Made by a program: the position numbers and the translations under genes. From assembly GCF_030410135.1 (NCBI RefSeq), contig NZ_JAUGQQ010000001.1, forward strand, positions 496,001 to 560,000: DNA of 64,000 bases. The letters are read 5' to 3'. Below are positions 22,033 to 26,232 of this stretch, piece after piece (position 1 is the first letter of the stretch; each line of letters begins with the position of its first letter). The notes below the pieces were generated by a model, which saw only the letters and a program-made list of their open reading frames with translations, had not been told where the DNA came from and ran no database searches. Source of the DNA: Aequorivita aurantiaca. GTDB taxonomy: Bacteria; Bacteroidota; Bacteroidia; Flavobacteriales; Flavobacteriaceae.

Positions 22033-23040
22033 ATGAGCACTGAAAAAGACGCCAAACTGAAAGCTTTAAAGCTAACCTTAGATAAATTAGATAAAACCTA
22101 CGGAAAGGGAACCGTAATGAAAATGGGTGATAGCGCTGTGGAAGATGTGGACGTAATCCCCACCGGTTCATTGGGGCTCGACGTTGCCCTCGGAGTAGGA
22201 GGCTATCCCCGCGGCAGGGTAATAGAAATCTACGGCCCGGAATCCTCGGGTAAAACAACCCTAACATTACACGCGATTGCTGAAGCACAAAAAAAAGGCG
22301 GAATTGCCGCTTTCATTGACGCTGAACACGCATTCGATAGGAGTTATGCCGAAAAGTTGGGTGTAGATATCGAAAATCTCATCATTTCACAGCCAGACAA
22401 TGGCGAGCAGGCTTTGGAAATCGCAGATAATTTAATCCGAAGTGGCGCAATTGATATTGTAATTATCGATTCGGTTGCGGCTCTTACTCCCAAAAGCGAA
22501 ATTGAGGGCGAAATGGGCGACAGCAAAATGGGCCTGCACGCCCGCTTGATGAGCCAAGCTTTAAGAAAACTTACTGGCTCTATCAGCAAAACCAAATGTA
22601 CCGTAATATTCATTAACCAATTGCGTGAAAAAATTGGCGTAATGTTCGGAAACCCAGAAACTACAACAGGTGGAAACGCTTTGAAATTTTACGCTTCGGT
22701 ACGATTGGACATTCGCCGTTCCACACAAATTAAAGATACCGACAGCAACGCAACCGGAAACAAAACTCGCGTAAAAGTGGTGAAAAATAAAGTTGCGCCA
22801 CCTTTCAAGCAGGCCGAATTTGACATTATGTATGGTGAAGGAATTTCAAAAGTGGGCGAGGTAATTGATCTTGGCGTTGATTTTGAAATAATTAAAAAAG
22901 CGGGTTCATGGTTCAGCTATGACGATACCAAACTGGGTCAAGGTCGCGATGCCGTAAAAGCCCTTTTACTGGACAACCCTGAATTGATGGACGAGCTCGA
23001 AAAGAAAATCAAAGACGCCATTGCGACAATAAACCAATAA
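22033..23040 (+). CDS. recA: Recombinase RecA
   Basis: 335 residues, cytoplasmic. RecA forms filaments on single-stranded DNA, catalyses strand exchange and stimulates LexA self-cleavage. Walker A GPESSGKT at 68-75; loop region [28 protein letters not shown] is textbook. The sequence shows no insertion or intein. The upstream region has a TACTTTTG box and an 18-base palindrome. The sigma factor gene begins about 126 bases later. Confidence 0.98.
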
Positions 23041-23166
23041 TTTTTCAGCGAGCTACGCAACCCTTTTAATACACCGGTATCTACAAAATGTAGGAACCTT
23101 GATTATTACGGTTGCCCTCTAAAATAACGGAGGTATTTACAACAAACCAAACTCACGGTACCGCAT

Positions 23167-23703
23167 TTGACGTTAGACGAGCTCATAATACAATGTAAGC
23201 AGCAGAATGCAAGCGCACAGGGCGAATTGTACAAGCAATACAATAGAATATTATTCGCCATTTGCCTTCGGTATTCGCCAAATTATACCGAAGCCGAAGA
23301 TAATTTGCAGGATGCGTTCCTTACAATTTTTAAAAAAGTTGGGCAGTACAATGGCAAAGGTTCTTTTGAAGGTTGGATGAAACGGGTAACCGTAAATACC
23401 GTCCTTCAAAAATACAGAAAGCAGCGTTCTTTTGAAATTGTTGATGAAGGGCAGATTCAGGATGAGGAAGAAGTAGAAATTGAAACGGACGAAATTCCGT
23501 TGGAATTTCTTCTGAAAATTGTTCAAGAATTGCCAGACAGATACAGATTGGTTTTTAGTATGTACGTGATGGACGGCTATCAGCACAAAGAGATAGCAGA
23601 AATGTTGGGAATCAGCGATGGTACATCTAAATCAAACCTGGCCCGCGCCAGAATAATTTTACAAAAAAAGATTGAAGAATATAATGCGAATAACGACACT
23701 TAA
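23167..23703 (+). CDS. ECF-type RNA polymerase sigma factor
   Basis: 178 residues with sigma-70 region 2 (about 14-80, AEDNLQDAFLTIFKKVGQYNGKGSFEGWMKRV) and region 4 (about 115-170, LPDRYRLVFSMYVMDGYQHKEIAEMLGISDGTSKSNLARAR), joined by a short acidic linker. No in-frame ATG lies near, so it starts with TTG at 23167, which matches the usual N-terminus of the family (TLDELIIQCKQQ). The next gene encodes a likely membrane-bound anti-sigma protein with an outer-membrane barrel, so this sigma is probably held at the membrane until an envelope signal arrives. Confidence 0.92.
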   Translation: MTLDELIIQCKQQNASAQGELYKQYNRILFAICLRYSPNYTEAEDNLQDAFLTIFKKVGQYNGKGSFEGWMKRVTVNTVLQKYRKQRSFEIVDEGQIQDEEEVEIETDEIPLEFLLKIVQELPDRYRLVFSMYVMDGYQHKEIAEMLGISDGTSKSNLARARIILQKKIEEYNANNDT

Positions 23704-23733
23704 AGCATTATTTATTTTGAATATTTAGAATAA

Positions 23734-23764
23734 AAAAGCCCCTGCTGAAGGGTAGGGGTTTTAA
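23734..23764 (+). terminator. Hairpin after the sigma gene
   Basis: AAGCCCCTGC and GTAGGGGTTT pair (two G-T pairs) around TGAAGG, followed by TT. It could end or attenuate transcription between the sigma gene and the barrel gene, or make the sigma message more abundant than the downstream part. Confidence 0.6.
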
Positions 23765-23770
23765 AAAGGG

Positions 23771-23814
23771 ATTTCCGCTGAAGTCAATCTTGAGCGAAGC
23801 CGAAAGGCGGAAAT
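23771..23814. repeat. Palindromic repeat touching the barrel gene start
   Basis: ATTTCCGC (23771-23778) and GCGGAAAT (23807-23814) bracket TGAAGTCAATCTTGAGCGAA and GCCGAAAG. It looks like another short chromosomal repeat; its right arm provides the first in-frame ATG (23813) of the next gene. Confidence 0.6.
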
Positions 23815-23818
23815 GACA

Positions 23819-25378
23819 ATGAAAGAAAAGAAAAACATAGACAATATTTTTAACGAAGGTTTCAAAAATTTTGAAGCCACTCCTTCCCCGCGCGTTTGGG
23901 AAAACATCCAAGCGCAACTTAAAAAGGAGAAAGAAGACCGCAAGGTTATCCCATTGTGGATAAAATTGGGCAGCGTTGCTGCGTTGCTAGCTGTTATGCT
24001 TTCCGTTGGCAACTGGGTTTTTAGTCCATCAGATTTAGGATCTCCTTCCATTACCGATGAAAATGTTCAAAAGACTGAAGAAAAACTGCACGAAGATTCA
24101 AAGTTTGAAAAAGAAATAAGAGCGAACGAAACGCAAGTTGCTTCCGAAGAAAATACCCTGCAAAATGAATCTACAAAGGATTTGACTATTTTTGAAGATA
24201 AGGCTACAATAAACGAAAATAAAGCAAAATCTTCCGATAGAAATAATATTAAGTCTTCTGAAAATTCAAATCTTACCGTAATCGCTTCAAGTAATTCGGA
24301 TAATAAGAATTTGAAATCAAAAGATAATTCACGTAAGGATTTGATTGATAAAAATTCGCAGAAAAATAAGGTAAATGAAAGAATTGCAAATTCCGATAAA
24401 TCTTCTGAAAAAATTAATGCCGACAAAAAGGAATATAATGAAACCCTGATAAATACTGATAAATCTGTTTTCGATTACAAAAAAGAAGGTCTTGCCATTA
24501 AAGGCAATTCGGAAAAGAATAAATCCAAAAAGAATTTAGTAAAAACGGAGGAGGAAGTTGCTGAAGATTCCAAAAATAAAAAGTCAATTTTCGATGCCAT
24601 TGCGGAGAAAGATGAACTTGCACCACCAACTGAAAAATCGAAAAAAGAAAAACCCGAACATCGATGGAATGTAGCGCCCACGGTGGCTCCTGTTTACTAT
24701 AGTAGCCTGGGCAATGGCTCCTCCATTGATCCAGCTTTTGCTGACAATCCGCAAAAGGGAGATGTGAATATGAGTTACGGAGTGCAAGTAAGTTACGCTC
24801 TGAACAATCGCTTGAGCGTGCGCACCGGCGTTAATAATGTTGATTTAAGTTATAGCACTTCAGACATTGAAGTGGGAACCGGTCCCGTAGCTTATGCATT
24901 ATCTTCTGTGGATTATGGTGGAAGAAATATAGTAACTACAGTGGTAGACAAAGGCGCTTTTGCGACTGCCGCTCCGTCAAATGGTTTTGGAGATGTAAGA
25001 CCAAAATCTACCCAAGGAGACGCAAGGCTTATACAGAATATAAATTATTATGAAGTGCCGGTGGAGTTGAAATATGCAGTTTTGGATACAAAACTGGGCG
25101 TGAATGTAATTGGCGGTGTGAGCACTTTATTTTTAGGAAGCAATGAAGTTTCGGTTAAAGCAGATAATTTTAATACTGTGCTGGGAGATGCCAACAATCT
25201 CTCTTCCGTAAGTTTTTCAACTAACGTCGGGCTGGGATTGGACTATAAACTGTCCAAGAAATTTACGTTTAATATTGAGCCAATGTTTAAATACCAGCTC
25301 AACCCCTATACCGATTCTTCTGTAAACTTCAAGCCTTATTACTTAGGAGTTTATAGTGGATTGAGTTTTAAATTTTAG
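23819..25378 (+). CDS. Dual-membrane-spanning anti-sigma-like protein with beta-barrel
   Basis: 519 residues from the second ATG (the first, at 23813, lies in a repeat). Layout: cytoplasmic segment 1-44 (NIDNIFNEGFKNFEATPSPR, then VWENI), a transmembrane helix at about 45-67, a strongly charged Lys/Asn/Ser/Glu-rich linker of about 200 residues (70-275) that looks disordered, then a beta-rich domain (280-519) with amphipathic strands ending in GLSFKF, a terminal aromatic typical of outer-membrane barrels. This matches the dual membrane-spanning anti-sigma (Dma) type described in Bacteroides thetaiotaomicron, where an outer-membrane barrel is tied through the periplasm to a cytoplasmic sigma-binding part. 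The upstream ECF sigma gene is the evident partner. Confidence 0.82.
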   Translation: MKEKKNIDNIFNEGFKNFEATPSPRVWENIQAQLKKEKEDRKVIPLWIKLGSVAALLAVMLSVGNWVFSPSDLGSPSITDENVQKTEEKLHEDSKFEKEIRANETQVASEENTLQNESTKDLTIFEDKATINENKAKSSDRNNIKSSENSNLTVIASSNSDNKNLKSKDNSRKDLIDKNSQKNKVNERIANSDKSSEKINADKKEYNETLINTDKSVFDYKKEGLAIKGNSEKNKSKKNLVKTEEEVAEDSKNKKSIFDAIAEKDELAPPTEKSKKEKPEHRWNVAPTVAPVYYSSLGNGSSIDPAFADNPQKGDVNMSYGVQVSYALNNRLSVRTGVNNVDLSYSTSDIEVGTGPVAYALSSVDYGGRNIVTTVVDKGAFATAAPSNGFGDVRPKSTQGDARLIQNINYYEVPVELKYAVLDTKLGVNVIGGVSTLFLGSNEVSVKADNFNTVLGDANNLSSVSFSTNVGLGLDYKLSKKFTFNIEPMFKYQLNPYTDSSVNFKPYYLGVYSGLSFKF

Positions 25379-25431
25379 GTTAGTTTTTAGTTGAACTTGT
25401 TTGATTTTATACTTCAAACAGAATGATTGAA

Positions 25432-25463
25432 AAGACCGTTCTTCGCCATAGGACGGTTTTTTT
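25432..25463. terminator. Bidirectional terminator
   Basis: AAGACCGT pairs with ACGGTTTT around TCTTCGCCATAGG, with T run on the plus side and A run on the minus side; it serves the barrel gene (plus) and plsC (minus). Confidence 0.8.
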
Positions 25464-25491
25464 ATGGACTGAATTTACCTCAGCAATTATT

Positions 25492-26232
25492 CTAAACTGA
25501 TGCATTCAGCAATTCTCCCAAAATAACATCGCGGGTTTGTTTCTTTAATTCCTTTCTGTTTTCCAAAGTTAAATTTGTAGTGGGAATTAGTTGATGAATT
25601 TTTGCTCTCATTTTTCCCGGACTGCCAATAAAAAAGGAATACGGCAACCGTTTTTTGTTATCGTGAAATGTCATGGGCGCAATGGGAATTTGATGTTCAA
25701 TGGAAAGCCGAAATGCGCCATCCTTAAATTCATCCAATAATATTGAAAGATCATCCGGCACACCGCCCTCTGGGAAAATGCAAACGCTTAAACCCTCGTT
25801 CAAGCGAATTTCTGCCCTTCGAAAAGCTTCAACTCTGCTTTTTGTATTTCCGCGATCTACCAAAATACAAGTTCGTTTATAAATATACCCAAACAGCGGA
25901 ATCTTGGCCAGTTCCTTTTTTCCCACGAAAACAAAGGGGTTTTTGGTGGCGTAAAACATCAACATAATATCTGTCATCGACGTATGGTTGGCCACGAACA
26001 TGTAACTCTTTCCTTTTTCGTACTTAATTTCCCTTTTTATAATAGGAAAACACCCAATACCATAAAGTATGAAGGCAGACCAAGTGCGTGCAACCTTAAA
26101 AAAAAATGGATACCAGGAATATTTCAAAATACTGATTAGTAGAAAAGGAAAGAGGATAATTGTGGCAAGCGCTATTATTAAATAGAACCAAAGGCGATAA
26201 AACGTGGCAAAAATGGAAGACAATATTTTCAT
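25492..26232 (-). CDS. plsC: 1-acyl-sn-glycerol-3-phosphate acyltransferase
   Basis: 246 residues from the ATG at 26232 (an upstream in-frame ATG at 26274 gives an unlikely extension). PlsC acylates lysophosphatidic acid to phosphatidic acid at the inner membrane. Motifs: NHTSMTD with His83 and Asp88 (HX4D) and FPEGG at 153-157. Two N-terminal hydrophobic segments (about 14-36 and 50-65) anchor it. It is divergent from trpS and convergent with the barrel gene. Strong call for the family, less sure which acyl acceptor. Confidence 0.93.
   Translation of the reverse strand: MKILSSIFATFYRLWFYLIIALATIILFPFLLISILKYSWYPFFFKVARTWSAFILYGIGCFPIIKREIKYEKGKSYMFVANHTSMTDIMLMFYATKNPFVFVGKKELAKIPLFGYIYKRTCILVDRGNTKSRVEAFRRAEIRLNEGLSVCIFPEGGVPDDLSILLDEFKDGAFRLSIEHQIPIAPMTFHDNKKRLPYSFFIGSPGKMRAKIHQLIPTTNLTLENRKELKKQTRDVILGELLNASV

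Follow-up and report, generated by a model that had tools for sequence, protein, structure and literature searches.

A recA-linked sigma/anti-sigma pair of the Dma type

The DNA analysed here is a 64,000-nucleotide stretch of the Aequorivita aurantiaca genome (contig NZ_JAUGQQ010000001.1, positions 496,001 to 560,000; hereafter the window), in which a two-gene unit (23167-25378) downstream of recA encodes an extracytoplasmic function (ECF) sigma factor and a 519-residue protein laid out as a dual membrane-spanning anti-sigma (Dma) protein (Table 1). Pfam searches identified sigma regions 2 and 4 in the product of 23167-23703, for which sigma70-ECF was also the sole model above cut-off among the 25 of 114 NCBIfam matches listed, and placed outer-membrane protein (OMP) barrel families over Dma residues 281-487. 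No FecR domain appeared among Pfam matches up to an E-value of 1, an Rfam scan of 22900-25500 returned no match, and a PDB search with a sequence profile yielded nothing relevant. The pairing of the two genes, proposed in an earlier reading of the sequence alone (the original prediction), recurs among relatives, with the genes adjoining in all 24 genus loci and all 108 family loci read.

The architecture put forward in the original prediction, comprising a short N-terminus, one transmembrane helix, a disordered charged linker of about 200 residues and a C-terminal beta-domain of 8-10 strands ending in Phe, was borne out by structure prediction in every feature. In the structure model, the C-terminal domain is confidently predicted as an 8-stranded OMP barrel with Phe as its last residue, and comparison of the predicted structure matched its fold to 8-strand OMPs. 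A C-terminal Phe, the mark of OMP clients, was found in 185 of 187 Dma homologues. The single transmembrane helix (residues 46-68; hydropathy maximum 2.1) is followed by a tether (residues 69-275) scoring below 50 in the predicted local distance difference test (pLDDT) over residues 69-255. At least 147 residues separate residue 69 from a conserved Trp (residue 283) in the 187 homologues, and a tether of this size would be long enough to cross a periplasm 20-30 nm wide. The conserved columns of recA-linked Dma orthologues are mostly barrel residues. Just N-terminal of the barrel, a KKSIFDAI stretch (residues 245-266; 24551-24616) is also conserved, with K254, S256 and I261 nearly invariant. 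Because this architecture is that of the published Dma plan, we assign the pair to the Dma kind, as a further instance of a plan already known; the literature searched was found to describe neither the locus nor the promoter motif presented below.

Table 1. Features of the recA-linked sigma/Dma locus, in window coordinates.
Feature	Position	Strand	Basis or remark
recA	22033..23040	+	Upstream neighbour kept in relatives
Predicted autoregulatory ECF promoter, GCAACC-N14-GTATCTA	23057..23083	+	Motif; GCAACC to TCTA = 17 bases
Leader, promoter to sigma start	23084..23166	+	Similar across aligned Aequorivita loci
ECF sigma factor gene, TTG start, 178 aa	23167..23703	+	Pfam, NCBIfam
Hairpin in sigma/anti-sigma gap, terminator- or attenuator-like	23738..23758	+	Fold, covariation
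Second inverted repeat, directly 5' of anti-sigma start codon	23772..23815	+	Fold
Dma-type anti-sigma gene, 519 aa	23819..25378	+	Pfam, predicted structure
Predicted cytoplasmic anti-sigma segment, Dma residues 1-45	23819..23953	+	Helices 7-14 and 24-40; invariant P22, W27
Predicted transmembrane helix, Dma residues 46-68	23954..24022	+	Model, hydropathy
Disordered charged tether, Dma residues 69-275	24023..24643	+	Model pLDDT, homologue alignment
Predicted C-terminal 8-stranded outer-membrane beta-barrel, Dma residues 283-519	24665..25375	+	Pfam, predicted fold

Predicted binding of the sigma factor

Both predicted models place only two helices ahead of the transmembrane helix (Table 1), and the 45-residue N-terminus of Dma contains neither Cys nor His. 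The original prediction had considered the sigma-binding mode unusual for want of a zinc motif. This view was not supported: the motif is likewise missing from about 44% of anti-sigma domains in class I, and the class II anti-sigma CnrY consists of two helices, as given in the available portion of PMC7406223. The class I arrangement of a three-helix bundle plus a fourth helix, as defined in the same portion (PMC7406223), was not recovered in the two-helix Dma N-terminus of either model.

The sigma/N-terminus complex, a check that the original prediction had named, gave a positive result when an orthologous pair was modelled as a tandem chain. Eight loci, in which the Dma start shares its frame with the stop codon of sigma, formed the basis of tandem rows. 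With a pair from a Zunongwangia metagenome-assembled genome (L337) as query and an alignment of 72 rows (8 paired and 64 single-domain), sigma and Dma residues 1-80 were modelled in AlphaFold as one chain, the sigma stop being read as Gln. The resulting model (pLDDT 87.3; predicted template modelling score 0.77) packs the two N-terminal Dma helices onto sigma, with Dma residues 6-35 reaching a pLDDT of 94-97, whereas residues 1-40 reached 57-76 when the window protein was modelled on its own; the tandem model was judged by these scores and by superposition. Superposition of the modelled sigma gave 4.7 Å over 150 residues for SigW from SigW/RsiW, 5.5 Å over 147 for CnrH from CnrH/CnrY, and about 21-27 Å for ECF sigma factors bound to RNA polymerase (full-length alignment). 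Mean-field couplings among 187 sigma-Dma pairs (effective number 157; tether columns excluded) ranked sigma E44 with Dma S23 first, but showed no clear enrichment of the N-terminus. On the tandem model, the Dma N-terminus is predicted to clamp the sigma factor.

Conservation, distribution and barrel-less relatives

A full-length Dma orthologue is present in 24/24 Aequorivita genomes, and recA lies ahead of the pair in 23 of the loci, the remaining one being cut by a contig end. A search for the same gene pair across Flavobacteriaceae, suggested by the original prediction, confirmed its presence, with Dma matches in 165 of 199 genomes. Among 108 family loci read, chosen as the better-scoring of those in the 165 matching genomes, sigma lies upstream of dma in all 108 and recA upstream in 105; the three others comprise two short pieces (L057, L135) and one locus (L127) with no recA in the stretch examined. 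Outside Aequorivita the two genes are frequently contiguous or overlapping, with gaps of up to 180 bases also seen. At the level of the phylum, 35 of 148 genomes matched, mostly through the N-terminal module where these lay outside Flavobacteriaceae, and such matches were often barrel-less proteins of about 250 residues adjoining a sigma factor. A GINLGPI-like tail is common to barrel-less relatives of this size from other families (L406, L408, L410 and L418).

The A. aurantiaca genome carries a second sigma/anti-sigma pair, located ahead of an rpoD-like gene (L002, C49:36683-41089), whose 472-residue anti-sigma retains a full barrel. At the rpoD-linked locus of nine other Aequorivita genomes (L030-L038), the anti-sigma has roughly 206-220 residues, lacks a barrel and ends in a common tail, YYYYNS.DGK..(V/I)T..K..(I/V)DS. 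With a short conserved tail in place of the barrel, this locus represents a natural domain swap.

A promoter motif shared by the operon and a predicted envelope regulon

Upstream of sigma, GCAACC-N14-GYATCTA was found in 23/24 Aequorivita loci, the miss being the locus cut by a contig end. The exact motif recurs in 64 of the 108 family loci, and a relaxed form (GCAACC-N13-15-NNATCT) in 106, missing only L127 and L135; GCAACC-N15-[CT]ATCTA occurs in 77 of them, versus none at thirteen other spacings. The rpoD-linked paralogous pair lacks the motif in 10/10 loci, within the 952 to 2200 upstream bases examined. Downstream of the operon motif, the leader (23084-23166) folds weakly (z -2.2; 4/200 shuffles as good), and its sequence is strongly conserved within Aequorivita. 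An own-genome search allowing two mismatches barely exceeded its reversed control (74 versus 68 matches), and hence the analysis below was restricted to exact or near-exact sites.

In a search of the 24 Aequorivita genomes with GCAACC-N14-BHATCTW, the motif was found to precede the gene of a 35-36-residue peptide with a single transmembrane helix (MTTFLIVLGALLVTNFLLLQFSCND type), which is present in 24/24 genomes and has the motif in 24/24 upstream regions. Across 23 equal-length rows of this promoter, the -35 and first six -10 columns are invariant, and the spacer averages 61%. In A. aurantiaca the motif also precedes kpsF-tatC-(small gene)-lptB (gene names assigned by eye). The kpsF-type site sequence was recognized by eye in 18/24 Aequorivita genomes, its context being read in two, and outside the genus in two near genera (G091 and G076); a family-wide role of kpsF as a target was discarded, as 0/36 Dma-positive genomes beyond these have the site. 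Two further recurring genus sites were dropped as coding, one lying in frames at L169 (taken for RmlC by eye) and the other, judged by eye, reading A-T-K-G-Y-N-V-Y-L. The motif also occurs 130 bases ahead of an EamA-like transporter gene (named by eye) at L152 and L166, a type of site that recurs in three Aequorivita genomes (G003, G009 and G016).

The exact pattern identified 86 sites, operon sites included, in 37 of 60 family genomes, versus 1 for the reversed pattern. Examination of 40 stretches containing 41 of these sites, hand-chosen with recA-linked and T-rich sites first, revealed 14 (L422-L433, L459, L460) in which the site, by coordinates, lies on the far side of recA and points away from it. 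These recA-divergent sites are accompanied in 12/14 by a 28-30-residue peptide whose C-terminus reads CKADGG or similar, and a trhO-like gene comes next in 13; the window itself has no such promoter site between recA and trhO. Among the remaining 26 stretches, the site falls inside a long open reading frame (ORF) in 5 and in non-coding sequence in 21. Of the non-coding sites, 5 lie ahead of a single-helix peptide and 12 precede a protein with a lipoprotein- or secretion-type N-terminus (by eye), the candidates scanned matching DUF5004, META, LVIVD and, weakly, OMP families; the others precede two surface-sugar type enzymes (DegT, GT9), one other protein and, in one case, nothing found. Three exact matches were identified outside the family, with L163 preceding a lipoprotein gene and L161 and L162 located within ORFs.

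Across genera, the single-helix peptides form a family of 28-38 residues. A profile of this family gave strong matches (E below 1e-8, a cut-off set after the list was inspected) in 35/103 Dma-positive versus 0/17 Dma-negative genomes, most of the latter being small (Fisher P 0.003). Within the 30 best peptide loci, the motif lies 47-70 bases upstream in 28; L482 represents the same place as L435, which has the motif and brings the total to 29, and L488 has none upstream. As background, random 160-mers drawn from the examined loci, themselves site-enriched, contained the motif in 325/20000 cases. Taken together, these findings make very small membrane peptides and lipoproteins the probable output of the sigma factor, and this predicted regulon is the new part relative to known Dma systems. 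From a promoter readable in sequence comes a set of predicted targets, among them peptides of about 30 residues that could go unannotated.

Proposed mechanism and alternative explanations

We propose, with a probability of about 75%, that the locus encodes an outer-membrane-anchored switch of the Dma type. The barrel would reside in the outer membrane, the tether would run through the periplasm and the transmembrane helix through the inner membrane, so that a single chain would span both membranes, and the two short zinc-free N-terminal helices would keep the ECF sigma factor inactive. Misassembly of the barrel, or a change in its surroundings, would release the sigma factor; the original prediction had likewise put forward direct sensing of outer-membrane state. 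The freed sigma factor would act directly at the motif to transcribe the sigma-dma operon together with a small set of envelope genes, comprising lipoprotein genes, the gene of the 28-38-residue single-helix peptide found across many genera and, for Aequorivita with two near genera, the kpsF-led operon. The cell would thereby mount an envelope response on which newly made Dma would feed back. Within this scheme, failed barrel assembly followed by proteolysis is our preferred signal, if somewhat short of even odds, because Dma itself is an OMP client ending in Phe, and therefore a chain that could not insert would act as the alarm. The second candidate, a ligand at the surface or in lipopolysaccharide, is rather unlikely, and stretch of the tether is an improbable third. 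At odds just under even, we would extend the proposal to a core envelope response of Flavobacteriaceae, in which Dma might report its own outer-membrane assembly and the main shared output, besides the system itself, might be two micropeptide classes (the 28-38-residue single-helix peptides, of MTTFLIVLGALLVTNFLLLQFSCND type in Aequorivita, and the 28-30-residue CKADGG-ending peptides divergent from recA) that adjust the envelope or silence the signal.

Several points weigh against the proposed switch. No experiment on the locus was found in the literature searched. SigG1, with no anti-sigma in its entry title, fits the modelled sigma equally well (4.5 Å over 145), and sigmaE/RseA and AlgU/MucA align with it through region 2 only. 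The tandem chain runs through a stop codon, without a sigma-alone control, and its linker may favour contact; the N-terminus accounts for 9 of the top 50 inter-protein couplings, a 1.3-fold share with no clear enrichment. Regarding the regulon, 68/103 Dma-positive genomes have no strong peptide match, and the kpsF site occurs in 4/40 Dma-positive and 0/10 Dma-negative genomes read.

Barrel-less relatives further show that not every such anti-sigma needs a barrel. As barrel-less versions occur in other families and, with a conserved tail of their own, in the rpoD-linked pair of nine Aequorivita genomes, control without the barrel is possible; the barrel could thus be a passive anchor or stay periplasmic, with the sigma factor controlled through another protein by regulated proteolysis at the inner membrane, as for RseA. 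Barrel residues nevertheless account for most of the conserved columns in recA-linked orthologues, and the near-invariant terminal Phe and 8-strand OMP fold likewise argue against passivity, making this explanation improbable. We give slightly more credence, still at long odds, to the motif being read mainly by another ECF sigma factor, with the recA-linked operon as one member of a foreign regulon. Several ECF sigmas per genome are usual in such bacteria, and A. aurantiaca itself has a second pair; however, ECF sigmas usually drive their own operon, the site stands ahead of this operon in 106/108 loci and is absent from the upstream DNA examined of the rpoD-linked pair, and 0/17 Dma-negative genomes have a strong peptide match. 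Least probable, and by some distance, is that the putative anti-sigma acts positively, or that it has no relation to the sigma factor beyond co-transcription. In favour of this, binding is a prediction and co-evolution lacks clear N-terminal enrichment; against it, the genes are adjacent in the loci read and the tandem model is confident. Furthermore, Dma2 of Bacteroides thetaiotaomicron acts through its own sigma factor by genetic evidence, according to the available portion of PMC13088901.

Comparison with known systems

Lipoproteins are among the predicted targets here, and nigD1 of B. thetaiotaomicron is presumably a lipoprotein gene. In the portion of PMC13088901 available, Dma1/Das1 act through nigD1, and the Dma plan is defined as a family confined to Bacteroidota and located next to ECF21 sigmas. 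Dma proteins of B. thetaiotaomicron also affect outer-membrane vesiculation, a role that the present pair might share. This pair resembles Dma1/Dma2 and Das1/Das2 in its predicted N-terminal anti-sigma part, single transmembrane helix, long disordered tether and C-terminal barrel, as well as in its adjacent ECF sigma and Bacteroidota host, the comparison being one of architecture rather than of the B. thetaiotaomicron Dma sequences. It differs in being recA-linked and in its predicted outputs, among them 28-38-residue peptides and, for Aequorivita, the operon led by kpsF. The published Dma work found concerns one gut species, whereas most of the Flavobacteriaceae genomes searched have the orthologue described here, as a rule next to recA. 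Two questions thereby become testable, namely how a flavobacterium is informed about its outer membrane and what effect the response has.

As in CnrY-CnrH of Cupriavidus metallidurans (class II, a type in which two helices lacking a zinc motif wrap the sigma factor), the Dma N-terminus has two helices and no zinc motif, and it may wrap its sigma factor in a similar way; CnrY is not known to have an outer-membrane barrel, whereas one is predicted for Dma. FecI-FecR-FecA similarly conveys an outer-membrane signal to an ECF sigma factor, but divides barrel and anti-sigma between separate proteins, whereas here they form one chain lacking, among the Pfam matches, the FecR periplasmic domain. Relative to SigW-RsiW, in which RsiW has a zinc-binding motif (available portion of PMC7406223), Dma lacks zinc ligands and has only two helices before its transmembrane helix. 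ECF-type promoters, one preceding an ECF sigma/anti-sigma pair, are also part of the Flavobacterium psychrophilum SM6 promoters in the available portion of PMC9723704; their -10 box, CGT, differs from the GYATCTW ending of the present motif.

Intergenic RNA structure and a neighbouring reading frame

The sigma-to-Dma gap spans 56-115 bases in Aequorivita, mostly with a hairpin, and the intergenic RNA of the window (23704-23815, hairpin plus second repeat) folds with a z-score of -4.8. Compared across 23 of the 24 genus loci (21 distinct sequences), the hairpin has 84% of its cells paired and 7/10 pairs changed on both sides, a level reached in 0/500 shuffles; slid controls were at most 61% paired, yet had up to 6 double-changed pairs. 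The second repeat is absent from most aligned genus members. The covarying hairpin could be an attenuator, and may lower anti-sigma relative to sigma.

An ORF of about 135 codons, mostly lipoprotein-like (ORF X), sits between recA and sigma in 88 of the 108 family loci, and its residues C17, C60 and C89 are invariant in 27 aligned sequences. A profile built from the ORFs of those 88 loci themselves gave one clear match in the 24 Aequorivita genomes, where X is not part of the sigma-dma operon. In one genome of another family, X is also found directly 3' of dma (L026:2306-2722, L029).
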